From Axinella damicornis (Eukaryota > Porifera > Demospongiae > Axinellida > Axinellidae), in NCBI GenBank assembly GCA_963931865.1, contig OZ007510.1, positions 7,355,399 to 7,419,398 on the forward strand: DNA of 64,000 bases. The letters are read 5' to 3'. The notes beneath the pieces were generated by a model. The model saw nothing but the letters and a program-made list of their open reading frames with translations, ran no database searches and had not been told where the DNA came from. Each line of letters opens with the position of its first letter. Within the stretch, counting starts at the first letter, position 1. The translations under genes were made by a program, and so were the position numbers. This document shows positions 223-63,521 of this stretch, in pieces.

Positions 223-3200
223 CTTGAAGAGCACACAGCCCATGTTGAATTCAGTATCAGGGTCATCAACGGCACACTGCTCGACCAGAGTCTGTGGATG
301 AAATACCATACCGGTAATACTGTAACATACATACGTACAGGAAGAGAGACATGAGTTAATTTACCTTAGCATTTGGCAGGTCCTCTTCAGCATATTTAAT
401 TGCAGCTTGGAGCTTCACAACCTACACCATGTACCAGCAGATGCGTGTGATTATTTGACAATACCAAACTCATAATACTTGCTCATATTAACATATGCAT
501 ACCTTAGGCTGATAGGCCTGGTTCTCAATCTGGCAGGAGGCCTTCACCGCCTCAGGGAAGGAGCAGGCCTTATAGAGGCACTGTGAATATGAGGAAGGGG
601 GAAATACGTGTGTGTGTGACAGATAAATAGACGCTTGAGAGGAAGCTAATGTAGGGATGGGTGTGCACTTCCATGCTAGGAGAGTGTCTGGAGCATACTC
701 TGAGACCAATTTTGGGGGGTAGTTGATTTTGCCCCTTCTTCCCCCCCCCCCCCCCCCCCCCCCCCCCCCAGTGAGAGACATTACCAGAGTGCAAAGGTAG
801 CTGGAGGTATGCACGCACCAAGTTCAGTACTCAATCAACAGTAACATGTATACCCATGAGCCCATGAGCCCCCTTCGTTGCCGTAGGTGGCTCACGGGCT
901 CCTGGTGTACCTGTGCATAGTAAACTCTGTAGTCGTCCACATCTGGGTGTAACTGCACCAACTGCTCATAGCTGCAGGCAATAAGAAGTAAACACTCGTA
1001 GCCACAGTGAAAGACAGCGCTACTAGCATGACTCATATCCAGTCTTGGAATGACTGGAATCCATTACTACTGGCATTACAATGCTCAAATGCAACACTGT
1101 AGACATATGTGCATAATTCTAGTTCCTTCTCTTCCTTACCACTCTGAGGCTGACTGGAAGTCTTGCAGACGGTAGTAGCAGAAACCAAGCAGTGACAGAG
1201 CCGCTCGAGACTGGTAAGAGTAAAACAAAACAGTACAGATAGGCCTTTTGTTGTACCATGAAACAATTGTATGTACATCTAATTCTCAGAGCTTTAGTTT
1301 GCGTTTTTTCTCTCTCAATGAATGTTCTTATGGATTGCAATAAAAAGGTTACCAAATATAAAATGAAGCAAGAGTGCAGGCAGGGGATGAAAACCATGTG
1401 AGCAGTTCAGAAACAAACAGGAGATTAAAATATTCTGACAAAAGCTCAGGATAAATGAAGTAGACCAGAGAGTGCATATAGCTGATCTTCAGATGAGCAA
1501 CTGCATTATGATGTACATCTGCCATTTTGTGTGGCAGTAGTCTGTCTCATTCCCAGACCCCTTAGCAGGGTCTGGGAATGAGACATAGTATGTAACTCCA
1601 TACGATAGCTTTGGCATGAAATTAGACTCAATTAGACTGGTGGCTTCTGAGTTGACTCCTGCATAGATGGAGTGGAAGGTTCTCTGATACCCATTTATGA
1701 TCGGAAAAGCTATTTGCTGACGTTTCAACTGTCATCATCAGGGCAAAAGCAAAAAGTTGAAACGTCGGCAAAATCTCAAGTTGGTAGGTATCACATTCAG
1801 AGAACCTTCTACTTCGTTTGGAACTATGACATAGAGGTATAACTTTGTGCCAAGATTGGCACAGTTTGGAAACCATTTCTACCAACATTTTGACATCGTT
1901 TGCGAGCCCTTACAGGCTTCTTAACAAGTAGGTGCGAATTGTAGCCCAGCCCTTTAAGGCATTTTGTGCAACTGCTATCTTGCGAGTGATGGAACCCTAA
2001 CAATTAAGTACGGTAGTTTGATGCTCCTTCGCGCCGCTTTGCGGCGCTCATAAGCTATAGACTTGGAAGAGAATGTTGCACTAGGTATGGGCATGTGAAT
2101 GAGATATGAAGCTGAGAATTGTGCCATTGTGGTCAGCATAAAGAGAGCTTTCAAATGATGTCCCTAAAATGATTTCTAATCTCAGTCACATTTTTGTCAA
2201 AAATCGCAGTCGACCAAAGGCTATAATCCATGGTTTTTCATGATTTTGGGTCAAAATTCAACAGACAGCAAAATGGACATCACTGGAATGTTCCATTCAT
2301 GCTGATCACAATGGTGCAAATCCCAGCTTCATATCTCATTCCTAGCTCAAGATACCTAGCATATTAGTCTGCTCTACAACTGCATGCATAGTCTCATTCC
2401 CAGGCCTTCTGCACCACCAGTTCTTGATCGCTTACAGTCTGGAGGTGTAGAAGGCCTGGGAACGAGGCTATGCATGCCCCTCCTTAGTAAGTGGCAACTA
2501 GCACACATGTAGCAAACAAGACAAAAATTGATCTTGGCTGGCTTTGCTGTGTATCCTTGGTATGCTGTCGCTCATCCGGTGTGCTGTTTCTGCCAATTTT
2601 GGTTCGTTGTTCCATTTTTGGCAGAAAAGGCACATCAGTCACCCTACAGATCTAGAACAGGAGTGCTTTTTCTGCCAATTTTGGCATAATTCGGCATGCC
2701 AAAAATTAATGTGCCATAATTGGTAGAAATGGTTTCCAAAATGTGCCAGTTTTGGCATGTGAACATACCTGATGACATAGCTGCAGTCACTCCATTAAGT
2801 TCTAACTATACCTTTGGGTGGCTCTGTAGCTCCATACTGAGGATCTGCACAACATCTGCATACTTCTGCTCTTTGATCTGGCCAGAGAAGAGAGGAGAGA
2901 GAACAGAACACTCCGTCAGAGAACATCAGACACATGCCAAACATAGGTGCAAAGAACGCACGATGAGGACATAATATAAAGCAAAACTATGAGGTACATA
3001 CACAATTCAATCCAACACCAAGAGCGCATAAGTAGATCGCCCGCCCGGACGTATGCGCTCTTGCCAACACAGAATACCCCAAAACCAGGGATACACACAG
3101 TATAAGTTACAGTACAACTTATTTAGCATGCCTGAGATTAAAGACAGTTGCAGCCAAAATAACACCAAGGGCAGCGCTAGTCTCGTTCCCAGACCCTCCT

Positions 3201-3506
3201 CGGAAAAATTTTCTCGAGGAGGGTCTGGGAACGAGACTAGGGCAGCGCTACTTAACTGATACCAAAGAGGACAGCTTATGGAGTGGCCATACTACCTGTT
3301 TTCCATTCAGTAGTACAGTACTCATCATTTGGTGCAATAGCCTCTATCTCATAGGGACTCACATTGGAGAAAAGACGAGGTCTGATGGCCAAATTTGATA
3401 GCAGTGGACCAAACCAGCTATGCAGACACTAATACAAACCAAAGAAGCTCACCATTCCATAAACAGTTTGGGTGTACTGCCCCTCTGGAACCCTCAAGCC
3501 TGCCAT
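223..3506 (-). CDS. IFT70: IFT70/TTC30 intraflagellar transport TPR protein, 5' part (3' end outside window)
   Basis: N-terminal 152 residues of the TPR subunit of ciliary IFT complex B, which helps carry cargo along the axoneme. Seven coding exons join in phase: 3453-3506 (start MAGLRVPEGQYTQTVYGM), 2812-2877, 1140-1210, 911-971, 503-580, 365-421 and 223-291. Diagnostic segments are LGFCYYRLQDFQSASECYEQ (TPR), QCLYKACSFPEAVKASCQ and DPDTEFNMGCVLFK, which match the start of animal TTC30/IFT70. The last donor (GTGCCA) lies at 222 and the next exon is beyond the window edge. The gene is divergent from POLG2, with start codons 190 bp apart. The large intron 1211-2811 holds several foldback elements. 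The family call is from recalled sequence resemblance; I see no break in the frame. Confidence 0.93.
2079..2362. mobile_element. About 285-bp foldback element, copy 1 of 3
   Basis: Inverted ends of about 80 bp: CTAGGTATGGGCATGTGAAT and GATATGAAGCTG blocks at left and their inverses at right. The middle contains TTTTTGTCAAAAATCGCAGT and CCATGGTTTTTCATGATTTT. In IFT70 intron 1. Copies 2 and 3 are at 10788-11103 and 54618-54896. Confidence 0.8.
2389..2470. mobile_element. 82-bp miniature element of the TAGCCTCG family
   Basis: TAGTCTCATTCCCAGGCCTT to its inverse ending GGAACGAGGCTA. The flanks TGCATGCA and TGCATGCC are similar. In IFT70 intron 1. Confidence 0.75.
3019..3063. mobile_element. 45-bp CAAGAGCGC element with 7-bp duplication
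   Basis: CAAGAGCGCATAAGTAGATC ... ACGTATGCGCTCTTG flanked by CCAACAC (3012-3018 and 3064-3070). Confidence 0.75.
3178..3239. mobile_element. 62-bp miniature element, TAGTCTCG subfamily
   Basis: Inverted ends TAGTCTCGTTCCCAGACCCT with an almost perfect hairpin, and a 9-bp duplication GGGCAGCGC on both sides (3169-3177 and 3240-3248). It lies in IFT70 intron 1. Confidence 0.85.
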
Positions 3507-5570: not shown

Positions 5571-8500
5571 TCTATTGTAGGTGGGTAAAGCCAGTATTGG
5601 CAAGGCAATACCAACTTGGCCACTGAACTCCTCCATTCCAGGTGCAGTAATATACTTTCTGGACTGTGCTAAAAGTATGGGACTGAAGCTGCCTTTTGGG
5701 ATTGCAGAAGTGGGTAAGTTCTAAGCAGATCAGTTTACTGAACCACTTTTTGTGAAAGTGCTTTCATGCCTTGTGTATAGGGAAGGTGTTCAGAAATCAA
5801 TCACCCAAACGACACTTCATTTTCACGTGAGTGTCAGTGGTAAGGTACTATAGCATAGTTGTGAAGTGTCCTCATAGTGTGGTTAATCTGCATTTGTCCA
5901 GGAAGCAGGAGTTTGAGCAGGCCGCTCTTCAGTTCTTCTGTCCTCCCAGCGAGCACAGGCAGTGGTACTTCCACTGGCAGAAGAGGAGATTGCAATGGTG
6001 GAAAAGGGTAAGCCTGCAGTATCTCACACCATGTAGTACACACACACCAAGAACGAGGTAGAGTAAGTGATCAATTCTGACGTGCTAGTGCGGAAGATGT
6101 ACATTACCGGAATTAGCTAATCCCCTGTGAATTGTTTATTAATGATCGGATGGTACTTGTGGGCATTTTTGAAAGTTAGATTCACCTGTGCTGTCCACTC
6201 TTCTCTCCAGTTTGCCTGCAATCCAGATCGATTTTCTGTCCAGGAGGTTGCCCAGCCGGACCTCTCCGACCACACCCCACAACACAGTAGCATTCAGGTA
6301 CACAGTTGGTAAACTAACACTTGAGGAGGGGTGTGCCGTTTATCAAAACACCTCAATTAGAGCTCCACTCTCTCCATCCAAACAGCCTGGCCGGACTGGT
6401 TTCGACTCCCATTATGTATAATAGCAGTGTGTCATCAGCATTCTTCAATGGAGCCTGCTGATGATGACCTGCTGCTACACTGTATATAGAAGAAGGTTGA
6501 AACCGGTTTCCTGGGAGAGAGTACACCTCTTAATTGAGCTTTGGAGGTATTTTGATAGCATATTCTATCACTTTACCAGAAAATGATCTTGAAGGGGCCT
6601 TAATTGTGTGAGGAATGGCAACTGCACTCCTGAAGGGTCAAGTGACAGGGCAAGCTCTGCACTCACATTGGTGCCTCGTGCTTGACGTTGTCGAGTGGGC
6701 ATCTAACAGATCATGCTTACAGCTCTTCCCGAGTAACGCTCACGTATGTAACATCACATACTGCCTATGGTGATCAGAGTGAGCAGTGTCGGCCAACAGA
6801 AGACCAGAATTAAAGTGACGCAAATTTAGAGCACCTATGGTAGTGTAGCGCGGTTCCCGAATCGCTAGCAGCAGCAGAGTTCCACCGTCGAGTCATACAA
6901 GGTTATAGCAGCTTCTCACATACATGATACAATATGGGCCTTTATATAGCTACAATGTTGCACCAATCAGGGACAACAATATGTACAATAATTATGAGAC
7001 ACAGCTACACAGACACCCTGACTACTGCACATTGTTTCATTCTCTGCTAATCATAGCAGTGTCGCTACACTGTCCCCCTCCTAGAGTCGTCATACGTCTC
7101 GGATGGCTCCAGCTCGAACGCAATCTGTCCGTACCGAATCGGAGTTTTATGGGCGCGTGTACTTCGACGGGGCGTGTACTTCGACGTGTCCTTCCAAAGA
7201 TCAGACCTTGTTGAGCACAAGTGGCATCCTTGATTTGGGGCTCCAGTATTCCCCACTTCAGATCACTTGACTGCAGCCCTTCCACCCGAGCAGGTGCAAC
7301 ACACTCGGGTAGGCTGATTGTAGTGTCCAGGACAGCACGATACGTCTTTGCTGAGGCTACGCTGCACTCCGTCTTTAGCAAGGGGATCTCATCACCATTC
7401 AGGTAGAGAACATTATCCCTCAGGTCCAGCCTGCAGCCATGCAGCTCCAAAAAGTCCAAACCCAGTATGCACTCGCCTTGGATGTCTGCAATCCACATGG
7501 GATGCACCGCCTCCTGTGAACCTATCCTCACGCGGAGATCCCCTTTTCCAAGAATGGTTGCCTTCTCACCAGTCACTGTGCGGAAGGACTGGCTCACTGG
7601 TTGGATGGTCTGCTGCTGCTGCTCTGGTAGAATATCTGGTCTGATTATGGAGATGTTACTCCCCGTGTCAATTGTGAACTGACAGGAATGTTCCTCCACA
7701 CTACCTGCAACTGACAGATTGTCAGGTCTATGCAATACTCCAGTTTTAAATATATCAGTTAGGGCTTTGGTAGTAGTAGCCGAGCTTCGCCCTCCAAGCT
7801 CGGCTACCAGCCGTTTCCCTGGTCCTGGTGATCAGGGTTGGCTGCAGCAGGTGTCGTGCCCCCAGTAGACTTCTTCCTGCAATTCCTCTGAATATGACCG
7901 GTTCCACCACAGCCCCAGCAGGTGACCTGCTTCTGAGAACGAGTTCTCTGGGGGTATCTCCTTGGTAGGCCTCTCTGTGGCTGTGGCCTCACACTAGTCC
8001 CTGTAGAAAAGAAACGTTGGATTAGATTCAGGCAATGTTGCAATTCTTCCAGAAACTCTGGGCTTGCGCCCGTGATCTTCGTCCTCTCCTGCTGCTGGGA
8101 CTGCAAATCACTTTCACGGTCCAGTTGCGCAGCTCGCACTGACTTCCCTCGCTGTCTGCTTGCCAATTGGTAAGACTCAAGCTCCAATGCAGCTTCCAGC
8201 GCGAGCTGCAAGGTCTCGGGACGGCTCTGCCGAACCTTCAGCTTGATGTCTTCGTCCGTCAGTGAATCAATAAACTGATCCTTGGCCAGCAGTTCTAACA
8301 TCACTGGGGCCGCATCTGCGTACGCCAACCTGGCCAGCCGCTCAATGTCCTCCATTAATTCACCTCCCTTCCCCTTGTTCTGTTTCTGAGTTTCATCCGA
8401 TGAAGCTCAGCTTGGTGTGCCGTTCCAAACCGGTTCTCCAATGCTGTGACGAGGGCCTGGTAGTTGCCACGGCGCTCAGCAGGCAGGTTGGAGAGAACAG

Positions 8501-11500: not shown

Positions 11501-12990
11501 ACTATCCCCCCCCTTCACATCCACCTGATGTCATTGACAGTGATGAATTCTCCCATGCCTTCCTTGTTCACTGCTGTTTAGCTTCCATGTGTTATTGTTA
11601 ATGCAAACATGCGTAGGCCTAGGAATGAGGTGTTGTGCCATCAAGAGTTCATTCTAGATTTGAAACACCCAACATTAAGCCAGCATTCAGCCATCCTACC
11701 GATCCCTGGTACTGCACATTTGTGATCTTTCCTTAGTACTGTAGGGTATTAGCAGATGAGCTGAGGCATGTCGGCATCCAGACAACATACAGCGATGTTG
11801 GCTCATTCGAATACAGGCTGGCTGTGTGAGTGATGTTGCCCTAGATTAGCTCTGCAATCAATAACATACTTGAACTAAAGATGCTCAGCAGACCACGTAC
11901 CCCATGCGCTGCCGATCATTCAATACAGCTTGCATGATGAGATAACTAGGGCCTACCGGCAGAATAAGATACCGTAAGTTGTGGCAGTAATGTTAGAAAC
12001 AGGGTGTGGTCAAGATAAATTAGAACAGCTAGCTAATTGTCGACAACTTTTTTCAGCCTCTCGAGTGGATCTCTGGTCTGTGAGTTATGTAGACGCTAGT
12101 ATTTTCTGAATTCTGACACTTCTATTCTGAAATAAGCCTTCAACAAGGCCTTCACTGCTCAAACCGCTTACACTCTACTGCTGCTGCGCATGCGCACGGG
12201 GTAACTGTGGCAGTTTACCAAGCTGACTGCACATCATACCTACTGTAACCCAGGCCTTCTCACCCCCAGCATTTGCAGCACAACGCAGGGGAAAGCCTGG
12301 TAAAACTCATCATGTGCAGTGACATACCTGACATACCTGGACGTTGGCTTCAGACTTAGTGTAGCTGAATTAAGGGCGGCTTTCTGAACTTGCCAAGACT
12401 ACCTGATGTCGACCACTCAGTTGTTCTGTGATCTGTGGTTGCGACCAATAGCACGCACTTGTGAATGTGCCACTCCTCCATCGTCCACCAAATGTCTATG
12501 TATGTCACTGCAAGTCTTAAACATGACAAGTTTTACCGGGGCCTTCCCCCACATTAGCTAATACATGCAAGCAACAAATGCTAGGGAAGCCCTGGTATGA
12601 TGCCATTCTAGGATCTGCACGGTGCTGGTAGTGTACTGTACACCTAGCGACTTCTACTGTAGAATGATCTTCATACTCTGGCCTCCTTCAGGCAAGATGA
12701 AATTGGCACCCCATACCGCATCATAGCAGATGAGGGTACCTTGGAAACTGGTCTGGTAGCACTTCAGCACAGAGACACAACCATAGAGGTACATGTTCGT
12801 CAGGTTGACTACCCTAGTAGGTCTTAGCCTCGTTCCCAGGCTGAGAACGAGAACCTGGGAATGAGGCTAAGTTGGTCTATAGTTGAGTTGTCTTCCATAC
12901 ACAGTCTCTCCTTCTCTGTAGGAACCGATGAATGGTCAAGATGTTCTTCACTCTGTTCAGAGAATGCTACTGGGAGCCAGACTGAACTAG
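3697..12990 (+). CDS. POLG2: POLG2, accessory subunit of mitochondrial DNA polymerase gamma (glycyl-tRNA synthetase-derived fold)
   Basis: Processivity subunit of the mitochondrial replicase, with a class II aminoacyl-tRNA synthetase-like fold and anticodon-binding-like C-terminus. Exons: 3697-3845, 4790-4892, 5355-5457, 5642-5713, 5781-5826, 5902-6007, 6211-6297, 9685-about 9792, 10129-10258, 11166-11246, 11737-11825, 12692-12788, 12922-12990 (stop TAG). Markers: SLCKRRGFIFQ, YGPLGTELKSNFINEWW, RQWYFHWQKRRLQWWKRFA, FRFPWG, VLKLHTCLAPYKVAV, EGTLETGLVALQHRDTTIEE. The RLQWW..FA, VLKLHxCLAP and TLExGL..RDTT patterns fit POLG2 better than true GlyRS, although GlyRS-like residues (YDYGPLG, FRNQ) persist. 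The donor of exon 9685 and its join to 10129 are unresolved: the phases do not match, so a microexon or another donor is needed. An extra exon between 4892 and 5355 is possible. An LTR element fills intron 6298-9684. Confidence 0.85.
6343..6555. mobile_element. 213-bp TA-flanked miniature element in a POLG2 intron
   Basis: TCAAAACACCTC and GAGGTATTTTGA are inverted ends flanked by TA. The inner blocks CAATTAGAGCTC and CTTAATTGAGCTT are also inverted. Tc1/mariner-type. Confidence 0.65.
6844..7069 (-). repeat. 3' LTR of the gag-protease element
   Basis: 226 bp, nearly identical to the 5' LTR. The protease/tail frame ends inside it at 7037. Confidence 0.9.
7037..7818 (-). pseudogene. Retropepsin-like protease frame fused to a Pol tail
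   Basis: The frame is open from the slippery site at 7813-7819 and has an ATG at 7735. It shows the aspartic-protease signature FTIDTGSNISII and the ILGLDFL flap-region partner. A linker follows (VEGLQSSDLKWGILEP, GLIFGRT) that normally precedes reverse transcriptase in Ty3/gypsy elements. It then jumps to an RRSTRP-type C-terminal tail. The catalytic DTG is intact, but polymerase and integrase are deleted. Confidence 0.8.
7777..7819 (-). promoter_or_regulatory. Programmed -1 ribosomal frameshift signal between gag and protease
   Basis: On the minus strand the gag frame reads CAG GGA AAC GGC TGG TAG. The heptamer G GGA AAC (7813-7819) fits X XXY YYZ. A 6-nt spacer (7807-7812) leads to a perfect 11-bp stem (7796-7806 with 7777-7787) around an 8-nt loop. 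The gag stop is the first codon of the stem. A slip to -1 enters a frame that stays open into the retropepsin domain. Confidence 0.8.
7804..9320 (-). pseudogene. gag-like region in two overlapping frames
   Basis: The first frame (9320-8355) has a long Gln/Glu/Arg coiled coil (residues about 15-130) and then a capsid-like segment (FGMLAHLNNWNQEEKATLLA, GNYQALVTALENRFG). The second frame (8355-7804) continues the capsid (ARLAYADAAPVMLELLAKDQ) and ends with a CCHC zinc knuckle (CWGCGGTGHIQRNC). One capsid domain is split at the junction TAATG, where the stop of the first frame overlaps the start of the second. That looks like a frame-breaking indel, although stop-start coupled translation is conceivable. 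The second frame ends in a hairpin with an upstream slippery site (7777-7819). Confidence 0.8.
9397..9630 (-). repeat. 5' LTR of the gag-protease element
   Basis: 234 bp. It matches 6844-7069 except for a 7-base and a 1-base indel, with essentially no substitutions, so the insertion looks recent. On the minus strand it runs TGTAGCGACACTG to CCGCGCTACA. Confidence 0.9.
10674..10772. mobile_element. Miniature element of the TAGCCTCG family
   Basis: TAGCCTTTCCCAGGCCTTCT to its inverse (AGAAGGCCTGGGAGCGAGGC TA), with a less conserved middle. In a POLG2 intron next to a 300-bp foldback element. Confidence 0.7.
10788..11103. mobile_element. Foldback element, copy 2, with a nested 31-bp palindrome
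   Basis: Same family as 2079-2362 in opposite orientation. Its right arm is split by the CAAGAGCGC palindrome at 11052-11082. In a POLG2 intron. Confidence 0.8.
11052..11082. mobile_element. 31-bp palindromic mini-element with 7-bp duplication
   Basis: Two 15-base arms (CAAGAGCGCATGATG and its inverse) around one base. ACATACC flanks both sides (11045-11051 and 11083-11089). Confidence 0.75.
12249..12596. mobile_element. About 350-bp foldback element related to the TAGCCTCG family
   Basis: Long inverted ends: CCCAGGCCTTCTCACCCCCA and GTAAAACTCATCATG at left, their inverses at right. A similar, more decayed copy occupies 22370-22650. In the last-but-one POLG2 intron region. Confidence 0.6.
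12831..12870. mobile_element. 40-bp miniature element of the TAGCCTCG family
   Basis: TAGCCTCGTTCCCAGG to its inverse, with flanks AGTAGGTCT and AGTTGGTCT (8 of 9 match). In the last POLG2 intron. Confidence 0.75.
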
Positions 12991-13268: not shown

Positions 13269-16200
13269 TTATTTCTTTCGTTTGCCAGTCTGCTTTCCTC
13301 CCTGCATGTGCCCCATTCGACCTTTAGATTTGGGACCACCTGCCTTCGGTTTTCCCGCCTTTGGTTTTCCTCCAGTCCTCTGTTTCTTGACTCGGGACTT
13401 TCCTTCTGCTTCTGCTTTCCTTTTACGGTATGTTCTGTGGGGAGTGGACAATACTGCGAATTACAGTCTTCTGTTCGGTAGCTGCCTCCAAGGACAACAA
13501 AAAATCTCATGAAACGGAATGTACGTAGTGATGGCCTGCACCACTCAAGAGGTGGAGTATGACAGGCCATCGCTAAATTTAATTTGTTCAGAGAACGTTT
13601 CGGCTTCCTAGTATAATAATGTGACAGTTAAAATTTGTCAGTACCGCAGCTTGATCAAGCTCTACATTATTGCAAGTTTGAGCCCCCACCCGGTACTATT
13701 TCCCTTGTGACTATTTGCTTCACAGGCCAGACGTTCATGACACACGCAGGAAAGGAAAAAGAACGTCCGGTCACTACATGACATTGGAGAACGTTCATTT
13801 ACCTTCTGTACTTATTCAAATGAGAGCAAGAACAGATTTGAGAGCTACATGTAGATGTCCTTCACAGTCACAAGCAAACGGCACAAACAACTAGCCTCGT
13901 TCCCAGGCCCGCGCGCCGTTTCGGTTGCACGAAAGAACGCGGAGGGCCTGGTATGTTTCCTCACGTGCGTGACGCTGAGGGTAGAAAGGTGGTAGAAAGG
14001 ACTTAATTGAGCGTAGGCGTACACGACCACAACCTAGCAACCGGCAGCTACCTGCCCACGCGCGCATATAATTATGTGATCTCCAGCTAGCTCTAGCTAG
14101 CGCTAGCGCGTGGTGAATATGTCAACATAATTATTCTTCGATGTATTTTATACTCGAAGCTCATCGTCTACGACCTACCCCTGGACGCCATGAAAGGCAT
14201 TGTTGAGAACGACGGCCAGTAAGCTACTCCGACTCGGGACTGTAGCTGCTACAAACGGCTGAATCCGGCTGCCAGGTGAGTCCATCATCTCATGCATCTT
14301 CAGCTTTAAGCTGACTAGTTTATCAGGCTAGCTATTCAAGCCGTCTATGTCTATATACATTCGGCAAGTATCGTATAGCCTCGTTTCAGGCGCTAGGCTC
14401 GCTCCGAAAAGGCTGCGTGGGTGGGAAAGAGGCTATAAGCGCATGCATGAGACGATGCAGTGCACTAGTACTAGTATACTATCATGCAGCTGATCGTTTT
14501 CCAACAAATAGTAGTTCTTGAGATAACAGATTGGTGAATGCATAGTACCAACAACACAACAACAACAGTGCATCATGGAAGAACAGAAGACATGGTTACA
14601 AAAGCGATATCGAGAAGCACCCCTGGAAGGACCTTGTGCAAAGAAGGTGAAGTTTTCCGATGTTCATGATGACCTTGAGAAGCAATTTGCACCTGGAAAA
14701 TTCAGTCCACATCAGGTTTCACAGGCAATCAAGGAGGCATTTCCTCACTCACTCAGCAAAGCATGTGGCAAAACACGCCAAAAGCACATAATTTTTTGGA
14801 GTTCAACCAGTGACTCCTGACATACAGCTGCCTCACCCTGCCATACCCGGTACAAGTAGCCAACTGTCTTCTGATGCTGCATTGCTGGAGTCCGAACAAG
14901 CTAAAAACAGGGAACTGCAAAATCGAGTGCAACAACTTGAACAGAGAATTTGCACACTGGAACAGTTGGCTGCATGTGTTACTGCCGAGTCACTTGACCA
15001 TCAGATTGTAAGTGTGCTGCAACGCGGCCGGCAAGTAGTGGATGGACCAGACACCCGTGAACATTTCATTTCTCCATTGACACCGTGAGCAGGGAGTTAC
15101 AATCAAATGCTCCGGATGTCTACCAACTCCTGATGACCCTTGGAAAGACGGACCGCAACCGCACTTCAGAGGATGACAGCACCAATGTTGAGCAGCTGCG
15201 CACAATCATGTCGATCTGTACCCTTTTGAAGGCACGATCTGTGAGGGTGAAGGGGGTACAACTGCTGTTAAGACTCATGCTTATAGCACAAGCAACAAAT
15301 CAGCAGGTAACACCCCACCCAAATTATTACTTTAACACAGCACTATAATACCAGTACATTTGTAGCCTCATTCCCAGGCCTGCGCGCCGCATTTGGTTCC
15401 ACGAAAGAACGTACTGCAAGCGATGAAAATCTGGGTGGGGGCCTGGGAACGAGGCTAGTACATTTATACATGTACATGGTTATACAGGTTTTGACAGTCC
15501 TCAACCATGCTGGTGTTTGCCTATCTTACACGACCACCTGGGATTACTTAAGACAGTTTACAGCTGATGCAAACTACTTGCAAGCAGTACGACAAGGGCA
15601 CTGGCAGTGGGTGTATGATAATCTTAACATACATCAAGCAGTCCGCCATGAACGTGAAGGTAAGGTACAAGTATGTAAGTAGGTTTTATGATGAAATAAT
15701 ATGTTTTTGTAGACCGTCATTCGTCTATGCTGAACATCACTTCTCGTCTCGCGGTGAATATTTTCCAGAATGGGAAGTAGACTGGTCGGATACTCAACCG
15801 AAGATGATTCACGACAACTGAAGGAAAGGGCCATGCATTACACAATGCAATTTCTGGTTAGTGAGTTTACAGCACTGGCCGGTCTGAAGGCTCATGTCCC
15901 TTCTCAGAAGCCCCTTCATCCAGCCGAGAAGTCACAAATCATCCCAATGAGCATCTTGTTCAAGAATGAAATCTACAAGACTGCGACGTTGGAAATCCTC
16001 ACTCAGTAAGGTAAGTCGGGGTAATTTCGGTCACGGTTCATTTCCGGTCACTTAGTAGTGAAGGGCTTCTCTATTCTAAAAGCTACGTTTTCAGCCAAAA
16101 CTATGGTGCTGTGCAGATAGAGGCAACACTCAGCTACAACATATCTGTCAGCAAAATCGAGACCTTGCGTCCTTTGCGCTTATCTGCCTAAGTGACCGGA

Positions 16201-19200
16201 AATACCCGCTGACCGAAATTACCCGGACTTACCTTATCTAGAAGATGCCCAGCTAAGTGGAGCTCCATCAGGTGATTAATACAAAAAAGAATGCAATCTC
16301 TATGCTAAACAGGTTTCTTATGACCTCAAAGTAATTTCGTGTAAATTGAACAAGATGTCTGGAATCATGGATATACAACACAACACTTTTGTCATGTCGC
16401 TGTTGCCAGTGACATAATTATTGATATCGTGAACCCTAGTGACTGTCAGACTACTCCACTATAGCTCACCTCTCGTACATACTCAGCCGTCCCTCACGTT
16501 CGTTACTCACGGGTCTGTGCTCCAGCACGAATCTTGCCGTGTAGGGTGGACTGGAGACTCATCCGAGTGCCAGCCATCATATAATGAAGCGCTACTAAGG
16601 GCCTCAGACTGTCTCGCGCCTCTGGATATCGTAGAAATTGGCGCTGGTCGGCTTCGTCCGCGAACGATAGAACTGCCTTCCCGGACTGGTGGGAATACAG
16701 TTCAATACTTGGGGCGTGGGCGAGACAACGTTTGCGGTTTCTTCCGCCCACGTTCATGTCAGGATGACGTTTAGTGACGTCAGTCACGTGAGGAAACATA
16801 CCAGGCTCTCCCCGCTTTTCCGTACTGCAAGCGACGAAAAGCTGGGCGGGGCCTGGGAACGAGGCTAACAAACAACAACCATTTCTTTTCAATCACCGAT
16901 GTCGTAGTGGTACGGTGGTGCAGACACTGTAGTAGTATGCATATGTACTAAGTGCCATATATGATGAGGCAGAGGCAGGTTTGAAATGCCTTCCTAGAAC
17001 AATGCCATTGTCACTAGCTTCATACCCAGGCTCCGCCCACCTGAGGCTACATTCCCACTAGCATCATACCCAGGCTCCGCCCACCCGAGGCTACATTCCC
17101 ACTAGCCTTGTACCCAGGCTCCGCCCACCCGAGGCTACATTCCCACTAGCCTTGTACCCAGGCTCCGGCCAATCTGAGGCTACATTCCCACTAGCTGCTC
17201 CTTGGCGGCGCTTCACAGCACTCAGATGCTCTTACTTTTAGTTTAGTTTATTAAAAGACACCTACCGCTTCTCCTCCTCTGCAAGGTGTGCGTTCACGGC
17301 CTTGTTCACATTGAGCACTCCCTTCTCCTTCTGCTTGGAGAGTTTGGCGAGGATGTCCAGGTTCTTCTGCCGCTCAGCGCCCGAATCTCCCACCACAGGA
17401 GCAAACTGGGAGGTACATGTAAATTGTCAATCGATTAATAATCAACAAGTAAGAGGGCAGATATTCAACAGAATATGGCACTTGTACAATCACATAATTA
17501 TCTGAGTTCACAAAACCAGCCCAGCCAAAGCGTACCCATGCTCCCACCTCTCTACTGTACAAATGACCATACCTTTCTCTTCTTTTCTGCCCTGGGTGTG
17601 GGTTCTTTTGGCTACAGATCAGAGGAAGAAACAACCGTACATGTAGCTGCTTGAGATCAGAGTGATATCTCAAAAGGAGATCACACATTAATGCAGTGAA
17701 GATACAGACACTGATCCACACCAATAGGTGCTGTTCCTTACCAACGAGGGGGTAAACTTTCCTCCGGAAGCAGTTGCAGTTTTCGCTAACCCCAGAGCAC
17801 GAGTGAGCTGCGCATTGAAGAACAAGCTACTCATTTTTTCCCTTTGGCATATCATTTGCAAAGGATACACTTACTATACAGGAAGGAAGATAAATTTAAC
17901 TCGTCTTTCAGTCATGACTGCACTTAGGATGTCTGAGTGCAGTTTTGAGCATGAAAACCCAAGAGAACTGCATCTAGGGTATCTATTACTATACACACCT
18001 ACTCATTGACCAATACCTACACAGAGAATGCCAGCCTGCTGTAGCTGAAAAACTGGTCTTGAACACTGGACTGACTGTTTCTAGGTCCAGTTACACTTGA
18101 AACAAGACCGAGGGCTTTCACAGGACATGGCCATGCTGTTTTGACCCCTCGGGCAAACCCACCCACCTCCCCCCGCCCCAGTCTTTCTGCTTACACAGAA
18201 CTGACATCACAAAATCTCGTGACGGCTCATTGGTAGGTCAAGGGTTAAGGGAATGTTCAACAGTTAACTGGGAAGAAGCAGGAACCCCAAATCCCAACTA
18301 TTCCCACAACTTCCTTCTGCAGTAAAGTATTGTCCTTCTCACACAGAGCCGCTGTGTCACCCACCTCATGTTTCCCCATGTCCTTGGTGTGCGGTGGGGG
18401 CAGGGGTGCTGTGGTAGAGAGAGGGGGGGATGATAGCAATGGAACACGTGTACATGATCATGACGGTCATTTGAGAACCAGCACGCACACCCACACATGT
18501 ATGCACCTTTCATTTTCCCTTTCTGGTTGCGGGCAATGTTCCTCAGTCTCTGGAACTCATTCTTATCCACCCTCTCCCTCTTCTCCTTCCTCTTCTTCTC
18601 AAACTGGTCCACATAAGGATCTGATGGTAAGGGGGTGCCAAAATGGTCAATCAACAAGTACTCAGTCTATTAACCCATCTCTCGTGGCACAGGGAGTTGT
18701 GGGCGGAGTTTATGCAACCTCTTGCGAGGCGAGACATGGGTATAACAAAGGTACAGTATATAGTAACCTGCTTTGTCGGGGATCTCTGTCATCCAGTCAT
18801 CCTTGGTATCATTCACCCTCTTGTAGCCCCACCTTGGCTTCCACTCCTGACCAATCATATCACAGTGAAACCAGGTTAACAACTCAACCGTCTGCACATA
18901 AACGTTAAACTGACACAACAAGACACAATTCTTTTGCTGTAATGCCAAACAATTCTATACATAAGGTTTTTTTTATCATTTTGTCGCAAAACCTGAATAC
19001 CTGAGTCCGCTCGTCAAACAGCATTCTAGATCGCTTTCTCTTATGGATGCCCTAGAATGCAAGTGTTGGTAGGTTGTGTGAAACATGGGTGTTTCGGAGT
19101 GACGACAGATGTATGTTGTACAGGAGCCCATGAAAATGCAACCAACTTACCTTCTCTTTTGCAAAGAGCTCCCATCTGGTGGGAGGTCTGGGCTTCGGGA

Positions 19201-28683: not shown

Positions 28684-29029
28684 TGAGCTCCCACATCTTT
28701 ATATTAGTTAATCACAAGCCAAATCCCAGCCCCTTTGCTTGTATACACATGTAGTTAGCTCATTTTTTAACCAATGACATTCATTTTCACTGACAGTAGC
28801 TACTTCATGAAAGGTTATGTATCAATTGGAGTGTTGGACCCATGCATTCTGTACTCTGAATGTAGTCATTTCCTTGTACACACTGATTAGTTTGGTTCAC
28901 AGTAGGGCTGCATCTTGCATGCATATTCAAATGCTCAAAGTATACTGTTATTGCAACCATACAATGCATGGGTTTCTAATTAGCTAGAGTGCATGGTTGC
29001 AGCAGGTGTGAATGGTATGCATTATCAGT

Positions 29030-29119
29030 ATCCTCGTTCCCAGGCCTGTGTGCCGCTTTCAGTTGCACAAAAGAACTACAAGCAATGAAAAGCTGAGCGG
29101 GGCCTGGGAACGAGGCTAT
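29030..29119. mobile_element. Miniature element of the TAGCCTCG family
   Basis: TATCCTCGTTCCCAGGCC to GGCCTGGGAACGAGGCTA, with flanks CATTATCAG and TGTTATCAG (7 of 9 in register). Confidence 0.75.
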
Positions 29120-31778: not shown

Positions 31779-32353
31779 TAGCCTCGTTCCCAGACCTCCA
31801 CCACAGCTTTTGTCGCTTGCAGTACGAAAATCGCGGAGAAGGCCTGGAAGGGTTTCGCACGTGATGCGTGCCGCCGCTTACGTCACGGATTCCGTTAATA
31901 CATACTCACGGTATTCAACTTGCTATCACCTGTTCCAGAGACGCTACAGAGACCAGACAAACTCCAGAGGAGAGGCAGCTCCTACCTATACAACATACCT
32001 CGATTTGAAACAAAACCGCTGAGAGATGGCTGCAATACAACGGTTATAACTTCGAAGCGCTTTTGTCAGTTCACTCCGTGCAGTGAGCCATCGCTCTGGA
32101 AATACACCACTTCCAACTCAGCACTACTTCGAAGGTAAGACTTCTAGCTTGGATAAGTCGGTGTGGCTCTCTTCTGGCCGTTGACTTGTCTCCGTATGCG
32201 ATCGTGGCTACTGTACTAGTACATAGTGGTCTTGAACGGATGACGTTTATGACGGTTGCGGCACGCATCACGTGCGAAACCCTTCCAGGCCTTCTCCGCG
32301 CTTTTCGTACTGCAAGCGACAAAAGCTGGGGTGGAGGCCTGGGAACGAGGCTA
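31779..32353. mobile_element. 575-bp non-autonomous member of the TAGCCTCG family
   Basis: Inverted ends of about 100 bp (outer TAGCCTCGTTCCCAG, then GCTTTTGTCGCTTGCAGTAC, then CCTGGAAGGGTTTCGCACGT). Perfect 9-bp duplication AGCGAGCCC at 31770-31778 and 32354-32362. The middle about 370 bp is unrelated to the 3-kb element as far as I can see. Confidence 0.85.
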
Positions 32354-60300: not shown

Positions 60301-61316
60301 TCTCAGAGAAGTGGTCTGAACTGCCAATGCTCCGTTCCAAACAACCCACCCTACACTCCAAATCTCCCCTACCAGGACTCATGCAGTGGTGTGTATTAGC
60401 CCCGCTGGTTCCCAAAGAGCAGGTGCTGTGTTGTGGCAGCACAAAGGATTCTCAGAAATTGTTGGTGACTTCAAACTCGGATATGGCACCTGGTTTTAAC
60501 AGAAGTAGTGAAATTTCTTCCCAAAGAGAAGACAAGTTTGGGTCCTTGATGGCCAAACTTCACGCTAACATTCTCTCTGTCATTCTGTCGCACTCGCAGT
60601 CCTTTGGCTACAGATCACTGTCAAGCGATGACATAGCAGTTGTCATAGCCACCCTGCTGGCTTTCAGTCAGCAGCTGTCTCAAAGTCGGAGCAGAGGTGG
60701 TGGCACCGGTAATGGTGGTGACGTTTTGTGCGGGATGACCGAGAGTGTGGAGAGGCTGGCCCAGTTTCTACAGATCATGCTCTCCTGTGGAATACTGGCC
60801 TTGAATGCAGGTACGTCCATCTACTGTACTGTGTGCTCATTTCTGTGGTTCTCCAATACAACATAATTAAAGCTGGGAAATATTGGCTAGGTGTATAGCT
60901 TGGGAATGGGCTAGGTAGCCTGGGAACATGGCTAGGTGGCCTAGGAATGAGGCTAGCTAGTCTCAGAATGAGTTAGGTAACCTGGGAATGTGGCTATAAG
61001 ATTGAAGCCAAGGGCAGTGTGGCCGGTAATGAGGATGTTGGGAATGAAGACAACATCAGCTATATAGAAAAGAGGCTATACAGGACAGCTTATAGGAATG
61101 AGGTCACTGCAACTACCTGGGAGTGAGGTTAGGATAGCTTGATCTCAGGTATGGATGGAAACAGCTGGGAGTCTTTCATGATACTGGTGTTCTCGTCTAT
61201 TCCCCTCCGCAGATGATTTGTCCTCTGTTACTTCAACTCTTCCAAAGAACAAACTTTTAGAGATGGTCGTTAGTCACCATCAGCAGTCTGCCATACACAA
61301 AACCAAGAGTTCATAA
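57334..61316 (+). CDS. INTS15: INTS15 (C7orf26 homolog), Integrator complex subunit
   Basis: Subunit of the nuclear Integrator complex, which cleaves and terminates snRNA and promoter-proximal transcripts. Seven exons in phase, 515 residues: 57334-57410, 57698-57904, 58061-58325, 58894-59001, 59220-59382, 60187-60810, 61213-61316. Markers shared with animal C7orf26: VEEMQLLMSIHSQ, CDLLGKLVSLCVSLESSVVL, YYDFCVLLP, RMLEIVSHWVETLPEFLF, PGLMQWCVLAPLVPK, ANILSVILSHSQSFG, ERLAQFLQIMLSCGILAL and DDLSSVTSTLPKNKLLEMVV. Longer than the human protein by about 65 residues, mainly in the N-terminal exons and the Gly/Ser-rich loop (SRGGGTGNGGD). Intron 59383-60186 carries a transposon with a HIRAN-like coding scrap. 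Convergent with RPP21, stop codons 234 bp apart. Confidence 0.9.
58670..58800. repeat. 30-bp tandem repeat built of AGTAATCTCC-like 10-mers
   Basis: CAGTAATCTCC, AGTAATCTAT and AGTAATTTC alternate about four times in INTS15 intron 3. Confidence 0.8.
59066..59219. repeat. (CA)n microsatellite ending at an INTS15 splice acceptor
   Basis: CA-rich run in INTS15 intron 4. The exon at 59220 begins straight after CACACACAG, so the repeat supplies the acceptor. Confidence 0.85.
59446..59821. mobile_element. 376-bp inverted-repeat element carrying a HIRAN-like coding scrap
   Basis: TACCGTAGTTGCCGAATATT at left, and at right AACTGCAACTACGGTA. Many CGCGAAAT blocks. A 42-codon frame at 59582-59710 lies inside. 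In INTS15 intron 5; no clear target duplication. Confidence 0.6.
59582..59710 (+). pseudogene. HIRAN-like domain fragment inside the element
   Basis: MEDELAIELAIYHVYSEATA followed by GEGLLCEREPRNTKDSN resembles the YHVY...GE.L.CEREP.N.KD pattern of HIRAN-domain proteins. Only about a third of a domain remains. Confidence 0.4.
59925..60003. mobile_element. Miniature element of the TAGCCTCG family in an INTS15 intron
   Basis: Right end GGCCTGGAAACGAGGCTA, left end TACCAGGTCTCCAC, inner CTCCAGCTTTTGTCGTTTCA as in other family members. Confidence 0.6.
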
Positions 61317-61550: not shown

Positions 61551-63521
61551 CTAGGTCTTGGTATCAGTGGAATCTCTGTCTTTGTTTTCTTGCTGTGGCT
61601 GTGAACCTGACGGTGTGTAGTGGAATTAAGAGACGGTCCAGACCATGCAGTCTGACTAACATGGACGAACCACGTGCAACTCACCAGGAGGAGGGAGGGC
61701 AATGTTCTCTGGCCTCTCGGACCACAGCTGCTGCTTGCCTTGAGTGAGGAATCGCTTCACAGCCCCACATGTCAGGCACGTGACCACCATGTGCTTTTGG
61801 CGGTGCGCTGGGGAGGGAGTATGAACTGATGATGGTCAGTTTGACTACAGAAGGCGGAACGATGAGTAATGTGCAAAGCAATCGTGCATATTATTGCTAG
61901 GTAGTATTTGGAAATTGTCATGTATATAGAATGGAACGTTTGGCCTCAAAAGGCCTTCAGCCAAAGGCCTGAGGCCAAAATAATCTTAATGTTTATCAAT
62001 TGCTGCAATATTTACACAGCAATTGATCAAGGCCACTTTCAGCTGCATACACAAACTCAACATGACCAGCAGCTCCAGCAACAAAATGACACAGCGACTG
62101 TAGGCAACTGGGCTTATGGAATGCCCAGCTTTTCGTCGCTTACAGTACAGAAAAGCAGGGAGGGCCTAAAACAATGTATCATGTGACTGAATCCTGTAAC
62201 ATGAATGGGCCACACTATGGGACACAGTTTGTGTATTTGTGGTTCACCAGATCCTACGAGTCTTGATTGAGGAAGACAGAGTGGATGTCTCAATTGTGAT
62301 GGCTTGAAACCAGTATGTACACACCTCGTAGCCTCTGAGTGCAGGTCACCCCAGGAACCAGGAGGGAGTCACAGGACTTGCACAGTGATCTCTTGATGCT
62401 GGGATCCCTGCAGGGGGTGAAATTGCCTATTACAAGTGGTGACAGAGACATCTCTATAGCCCAACCACCAAACGAAGTAGCCTGGTCCTCAAACCACTCC
62501 CCAGCTCTTTGTCACTTACAAAAGGTCTGGGAACGAGGCTAGGAAGGGTCTGAGAACGAGGCTAGGAAGGGTCTGGGAATGAGGCTAGGAAGGGTCCGGG
62601 AATGAGGCTAGGAAGGGTCCGGGAATGAGGCTAGGAAGGGTCCGGGAACGAGGCTAGGAAGGGTCCGGGAACAAGGCTAGGAAGGGTCTGGGAACGAGGC
62701 TAGGAAGGGTCTGGGAACGAGGCTAGGAAGGGCCGGGAACGAGGCTAGGAAGGGTCCGGGAACGAGGCTAGGAAGGGTCTGAGAACGAGGCTAGGAAGGG
62801 TCTGGGAACGAGGCTAGGAAGGGTCTGGGAACGAGGCTAGGAAGGGTCCGGGAACGAGGCTAGGAAGGGTCCGGGAATGAGGCTAGGAAGGGTCCGGGAA
62901 CGAGGCTAGGAAGGGTCTGGGAACGAGGCTAGGAAGGGTCCGGGAACGAGGCTAGGAAGGGTCCGGGAGCGAGGCTAGGAAGGGTCCGGGAACGAGGCTA
63001 GGAAGGGTCCGGGAACGAGGCTAGGAAGGGTCCGGGAACGAGGCTAGGAAGGGTCCGGGAACGAGGCTAGGAAGGGTCTGGGAACGAGGCTAGGAAGGGT
63101 CCGGGAATGAGGCTAGGAAGGGTCCGGGAACGAGGCTAGGAAGGGTCCGGGAACGAGGCTAGGAAGGGTCCGGGAACGAGGCTAGGAAGGGTCTGGGAAC
63201 GAGGCTAGGAAGGGTCTGGGAATGAGGCTAGGAAGGGTCTGGGAATGACACCAGGGAGGGTCTGGGTAGCTTTAAGACTGTCCGTGCAAATGGATAGCTA
63301 AGCCACGTAGGTTGTGTATCAGGGCATGTGGTTGACCAACTGAGTAACCATTGTACAGTTGTGCAACCTGGCAAACTAGGTATCCGCATGGAACACAAAC
63401 ATGATGTGGGTCATACGTACATTCGCAGCACCAGTCTCTTGGCGATGGTCCTCATGGTGTGGATGTAAAACCTGGCAAGCTGGGGTTGGCTAGGGGTAGC
63501 TGAGACAGCGGCAAGTGCAGC
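61551..63521 (-). CDS. RPP21: RPP21, ribonuclease P/MRP protein subunit (5' end not in window)
   Basis: Zinc-binding protein subunit of RNase P, which trims tRNA 5' leaders. Exons in phase: 63421-63521, 62325-62407, 61685-61807, 61551-61606 (stop TAG). The run ARFYIHTMRTIAKRLVLR, MDPSIKRSLCKSCDSLLVPG, VTCTQR and CLTCGAVKRFLTQG matches Rpr2/Snm1/Rpp21 proteins, including the two CxxC pairs (CKSC, CLTC) that bind zinc. The N-terminal exon (family pattern with LNxLYQA) is not recognisable in 63522-64000 and is probably beyond the window. The last exon was chosen because a GTGAGT donor at 61684 joins in phase to a TCAG acceptor; reading through instead would end at 61656. Intron 62408-63420 is almost filled by a 23-bp satellite. 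Confidence 0.9.
62478..62541. mobile_element. Miniature element at the edge of the 23-bp satellite
   Basis: TAGCCTGGTCCTCAAACC at left; CCCCAGCTCTTTGTCACTTA inside; GGTCTGGGAACGAGGCTA at right. The satellite begins directly after its right end. Confidence 0.65.
62520..63250. repeat. 23-bp satellite, about 31 units
   Basis: Unit GGGAACGAGGCTAGGAAGGG TCT with C/T and A/G variants. Each unit contains the terminal bases of the TAGCCTCG transposon family (CTGGGAACGAGGCTA) plus GGAAGGG. It fills most of the RPP21 intron 62408-63420. Confidence 0.95.

Follow-up and report, generated by a model that had tools for sequence, protein, structure and literature searches.

In this study, we analysed a stretch of 64,000 nucleotides from the sponge Axinella damicornis (contig OZ007510.1, positions 7,355,399 to 7,419,398; hereafter the window), focusing on the transposable element at 13892-16867 and on its relatives in the searched genome (226 Mb, 120 contigs), from which all loci outside the window were drawn. 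With a probability of roughly 0.88, this element is an internally deleted cut-and-paste transposon of the AcademH kind, whose long relatives encode a predicted DDE transposase of the family DUF6589 and, on the opposite strand, a RecQ-type helicase. At the same probability the window copy is a dead, non-autonomous member of that kind, likened to AcademH by its traits and not by comparison with Academ sequences. The assignment was made because a DDE transposase, a helicase and 9-base-pair (bp) target-site duplications together fit the published traits of AcademH.

The window unit is a real but broken element, a deletion derivative of larger two-gene relatives. It forms one transposon with inverted termini and perfect acaaacaac flanks, exactly where the original prediction had placed it. 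Aligned with a relative of 6901 bp, it matched only stretches within 1-2031 and 6746-6901; the intervening part is gone, which removes the DUF6589 protein from roughly residue 417 onwards as well as the helicase; a search of the window element for helicase sequence likewise gave no match. The damaged, spliced open reading frame (ORF) described earlier is genuine, as exon-by-exon alignment to the DUF6589 gene of the long relative showed, and the window coding pieces taken alone gave a weak match to the DUF6589 profile (E = 0.09; best score 11.9 bits, below the cut-off of 27). From the conserved acidic set, the window copy retains only the first D, encoded by codon 15617-15619 within the motif WVYDNLNIHQ; the second Asp and the Glu belong to the deleted half.

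DNA searches revealed close copies of the window coding stretch on C14, C2 and C3. In all four copies of this subfamily, the match to the DUF6589 model ends at or before residue 416 of 790. Over shared blocks, identity between the window and C14 copies is 94-97%; the C14 copy is without element positions 719-1043 and has the same two ends with its own perfect duplication, actgtcact. The C2 copy is flanked by ttgaccttg, and the C3 copy represents the C2 insertion duplicated with its surroundings, because the flanks are common to both (98.4% identity over 5,969 aligned columns). The comparison of occupied and empty sites that had been proposed was also possible: the window and C14 copies have agaacgcgg once, and in the C2 copy it flanks a nested 566-bp element on both sides (8/9 today).

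Among the long relatives, the better preserved ones (6.7-9 kb) have a DUF6589 gene and a RecQ-type helicase gene in convergent orientation. Specifically, the plus-strand gene of the long copy matched DUF6589 (PF20231) at E 7.7e-65 over profile positions 3-410 of 410, with 219.6 bits for the model of the long relative against a curated cut-off of 27. The minus-strand gene showed DEAD and Helicase_C matches, and its match to the RecQ zinc-binding domain stayed below threshold; among solved structures, the relatives of its first piece were RecQ, BLM, RECQ5 and other RecQ-family helicases. Helicase pieces of a second lineage lie in the same orientation (40-66% identity), and the C4 element holds remnants only. 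Frame breaks occur near residues 24-26 in copy B and near residue 497 in copy C, whose scripted GT-AG gene model ends after 499 residues. Could a Mutator-like element (MULE) transposase stand behind the duplications instead? Duplications of 9 bp are usual for Mutator-like elements, and that length was confirmed here, but DUF6589 was the sole Pfam family of the long relative's plus-strand protein at E 0.01 or better and no MULE domain was found in it, making this explanation extremely improbable. The earlier description of a DUF6589-type protein, not a Mutator transposase, in an element with 9-bp duplications was upheld.

Pfam annotates DUF6589 as a family of unknown function; reading it as a predicted DDE transposase is the useful addition of this study. 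Two DUF6589 models, one fungal and one close to a sponge protein but not proven animal, resembled DDE transposases, and the DUF6589 relatives displayed an RNase H-like predicted fold with conserved D/D/E columns. The best structural matches of the models were the P element and hAT (Hermes) transposases, in which an RNase H-like core likewise carries a long helical insertion ahead of the final catalytic residue; identity is about 9% only. P element and hAT duplications are 8 bp long, and these elements are not known to have a helicase gene. The modelled structures therefore lend support to the proposal that the transposase is the DUF6589-type protein or the C-terminal half that it has lost, with the predicted catalytic residues split between the kept and the lost part as given above. 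Relatives of the protein are distributed among many mushroom-forming fungi and at least one sponge.

Long loci were collected via DUF6589 DNA, a procedure that would miss same-end elements with a different gene. With duplicated insertions counted once, DUF6589 DNA was present at nine places: the window, C14, C2/C3, C8a, C1a, C8b, C1b, C4 and a C9 fragment. Characteristic ends, belonging to four end lineages, enclose it in eight of these nine independent traces, so that the refuting case named earlier, an ORF lying outside these ends in most copies, was not observed. The eight end-bounded insertions have duplications of 9/9 in six cases, 8/9 in C4 (a damaged long element of 5717 bp) and none in C8b. 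The first long lineage, with two loci on C8 and one on C1, was probably recently active, because its copies are 96-99% identical to one another over aligned blocks; their terminal inverted repeats measure 98-99 bp and are 99% alike, their lengths are 9050 bp (including a 2.16-kb nested insert), 7387 bp and 6901 bp, and two have a perfect 9-bp duplication and the third none. In the second lineage, three copies on C1 near 12.2-12.6 Mb represent one insertion, since their flanks are shared; one is 6728 bp long with gcttcccac at 9/9, another shows 8/9, and in the third the 5' end lacks its first 9 bases. As separate observations, the 2.16-kb insert (L030/L034, about C8:7362157-7364318) has 35-bp perfect inverted repeats and an apparent 8-bp duplication against the uninterrupted copy, and segmental duplications copied element and flanks together at L056, L057 and L058 (C1:12.23-12.62 Mb) and at L028/L029 (C2, C3).

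The DUF6589 ORF had also been suggested to be captured cargo, carried by an element that another enzyme moves. In its favour, the window copy is truncated, its 5' and 3' ends match those of the compared long relative at only 74% and 80%, and no search was aimed at elements bearing these ends together with other genes. The C9 trace (L061:3518-4105), in which a stretch of 16-31 DUF6589 residues recurs three times, has no such ends within 9 kb, so that the link between DUF6589 and the ends is imperfect. For a locus found by its end alone (L060, C4:1145344), no partner end lay within 9.9 kb and neither DUF6589 nor a helicase was matched, its remaining ORFs not having been scanned against families. 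Yet DUF6589 lies within such ends in all the other traces, the ninth being a short fragment; two of its models resemble DDE transposases by prediction; and, apart from DUF6589, only a helicase gene was recognised in the long relatives. Captured cargo is accordingly a very unlikely account, and the suggestion was not supported.

Duplications were compared across copies in two sets. The end-selected set comprised loci L003-L008, fetched by end sequence alone, with units of 382-392 bp and both ends matching the window element; all six displayed a 9/9 duplication, and other lengths from 2 to 14 gave no perfect match. The chance of one 9/9 match is about 4e-6 (4 to the power -9). The wider list came from a script that paired ends in the window and the loci and kept the best 9-bp partner per left end, which favours matches; 39 pairs were obtained, 14 of them at 9/9. 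By hand, 20 were kept and 19 dropped: 17 of the latter reached at most 5/9, mostly distant ends wrongly paired, and the other two were a 34-bp unit at 6/9 and a second copy, at 8/9, of the 95-bp nested element. Addition of six rows by hand (L010, two in L028, and copies A, B and C) gave 26 rows, of which 18 had 9/9, or 17 of 25 if L010 is left out because it and L003 are one insertion. The other eight were four at 8/9 and one each at 7/9, 6/9 (which a 1-base gap would align), 5/9 (9/10 at length 10) and 2/9 (copy C). Within the window, the perfect flanks noted earlier at 31779-32353 and 3178-3239 and the 8/9 flanks at 15363-15457 were all recovered. For two smaller units, the reported duplications (8/9 and 7/9) stood and the positions were corrected, from 12831-12870 to 12825-12869 and from 29030-29119 to 29029-29118, respectively.

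In PMC10045372, AcademH is given duplications of 9 or 10 bp and AcademX of 3 or 4 bp, a difference seemingly tied to the encoded helicase and nuclease. PMC10799480 cites AcademH as one source of helicase domains and gives it a low copy number in three fungal phyla, and its occurrence in animals and fungi is stated by the title of Kojima 2020 (Mob DNA 11:15), as cited in PMC10045372 and PMC10799480. Our elements share with AcademH the inverted ends, a helicase gene, which is encoded by the long relatives, and DUF6589-protein relatives in fungi and a sponge. Duplications of 9-10 bp are shared as well, being 9/9 in the window element, present in 6/6 end-selected copies, 9/10 in one unit and absent from one long copy. 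A DDD/E transposase is predicted for the DUF6589 relatives. The window copy differs in having neither a helicase nor a complete transposase, only the first D being left. KolobokH likewise pairs a DDD/E transposase with a RecQ helicase, according to PMC9587614, but the Kolobok duplications described there are TTAA-specific and 4 bp long, against 9 bp of varied sequence here, and an element with a Kolobok transposase and RecQ helicase has a virtually negligible probability. It is also distinctly improbable that the DUF6589/RecQ elements form a superfamily of their own, outside Academ, with the same 9-bp habit. A literature search, not exhaustive, found no paper naming DUF6589, and AcademH was compared by description and not by sequence; however, AcademH is described with the same traits, namely a helicase, 9-10-bp duplications (PMC10045372) and presence in animals and fungi. 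Rather unlikely, too, is the broader conjecture that DUF6589 is the transposase of a possibly separate RecQ-helicase-bearing superfamily, in which the helicase would belong to the machinery, the 9-bp cut would be characteristic and the outer ~18 bp would be enough for miniature elements to be mobilised across lineages.

The 19-bp terminus TAGCCTCGTTCCCAGGCCC had 4,571 matches in the genome (2,245 forward and 2,326 reverse), a count of termini and not of elements, and the reversed control pattern had 0. Among nine miniature copies of 372-392 bp that were compared (L003-L008, L011, L025 and L026), the 5' end of the window element (119-132 bp) is common to all at 91-98%. Five (L004, L006, L007, L025 and L026) have both asymmetric window ends, with 127-132 columns at 91-97% on the 5' side and 84-87 columns at 97-100% on the 3' side, and L003, L005, L008 and L011 carry the 5' end on both sides. 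With more than the short inverted repeat in common with the window element, these miniature copies are derivatives of its subfamily and do not merely happen to have a short repeat in common with it. In the smaller units, the sequence shared with the window element or with the long relative is confined to about 17-57 bp, and for the 62-bp unit at 3178 no match at E 1e-4 extended past the short terminus; these units suggest that mobilisation may need no more than the outer ~18 bp. The window element itself had been proposed as the coding parent of the miniature family, a role that could not be maintained, because no complete transposase can be encoded by the window copy; furthermore, the catalytic half is absent from all four subfamily copies found.

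Right ends outnumber left ends in the window (48 vs 15), and the surplus is mostly a 23-bp tandem array, not elements. This array at 62524-63266 has 32 copies of a unit that includes the 15-bp right terminus of the transposon (CYGGGAACGAGGCTA plus GGAAGGGT), and the minisatellite apparently grew out of a transposon end. A second, degenerate array of a similar unit lies at 60896-60996 (period 21, 4.9 copies).

Feature coordinates in the window are collected in Table 1. The C14 copy has an empty site for the 226-bp insert, which is possibly, as a guess, a mariner-type miniature element. The filler at roughly 16236-16713 matched only copies of this subfamily and, from about 16626 on, the C4 locus L060; four ORFs of 16433-16892 matched no Pfam family at E 0.1 or better, and no RNA family reached its gathering score in the window element. 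To the right of the element, a short tandem repeat of about 44 bp (actagcatcatacccaggctccgcccac...) occupies 17010-17160, with the diverged terminus TAGCCTTGTACCCAG after the repeat at 17103 and, 44 bp further along, at 17147.

Table 1. Positions of the AcademH-like element, its parts and other miniature elements in the window.
Feature	Position	Strand	Remarks
Whole non-autonomous element, AcademH-like deletion derivative	13892..16867	+	2976 bp; ends, duplication, homology to long two-gene relative
Left 9-bp target-site duplication acaaacaac	13883..13891	.	
Right 9-bp target-site duplication acaaacaac	16868..16876	.	
5' terminal 131 bp	13892..14022	+	Aligns to first 143 bp of long relative at 74%
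3' terminal 84 bp	16784..16867	+	Inside last 154 bp, which align to 3' end of long relative at 80%
DUF6589 gene remnant	14587..14790	+	Residues about 3-69 of long relative's model; tblastn
DUF6589 gene remnant	15064..15309	+	Residues about 151-233; tblastn
DUF6589 gene remnant	15485..16006	+	Residues about 232-405; tblastn; includes predicted first catalytic Asp
95-bp palindromic miniature element, intron-nested	15363..15457	.	8/9 duplication; C14, C2 and C3 copies carry one too
226-bp element of another family	16009..16234	.	Inverted ends AGGTAAGTC and TA duplication; interrupts last remaining exon
575-bp miniature element, same kind of ends	31779..32353	.	Perfect 9-bp duplication
62-bp miniature element	3178..3239	.	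Perfect 9-bp duplication; only short terminus shared
45-bp miniature element	12825..12869	.	8/9 duplication
90-bp miniature element	29029..29118	.	7/9 duplication

We infer a cut-and-paste mechanism in which the DUF6589 transposase would recognise ends of the form TAGCCTCGTTCCCAG..., excise the segment lying between a pair of them and integrate it at a cut staggered by 9 bp, which would give rise to the 9-bp duplications; the helicase may also take part in this process. Complete elements would supply both proteins in trans to the window copy and the miniature copies, which could move only with supplied proteins because the catalytic half and the helicase are lost, and particular long lineages would have mobilised particular short copies. 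A family of unknown function, DUF6589, may in this way become a testable transposase with a proposed catalytic triad. The mechanism also suggests an origin for the miniature elements, the terminus of which is present thousands of times in the genome. In addition, the long two-gene copies, probably recently active, would be a place to study a transposon-borne RecQ-type helicase.

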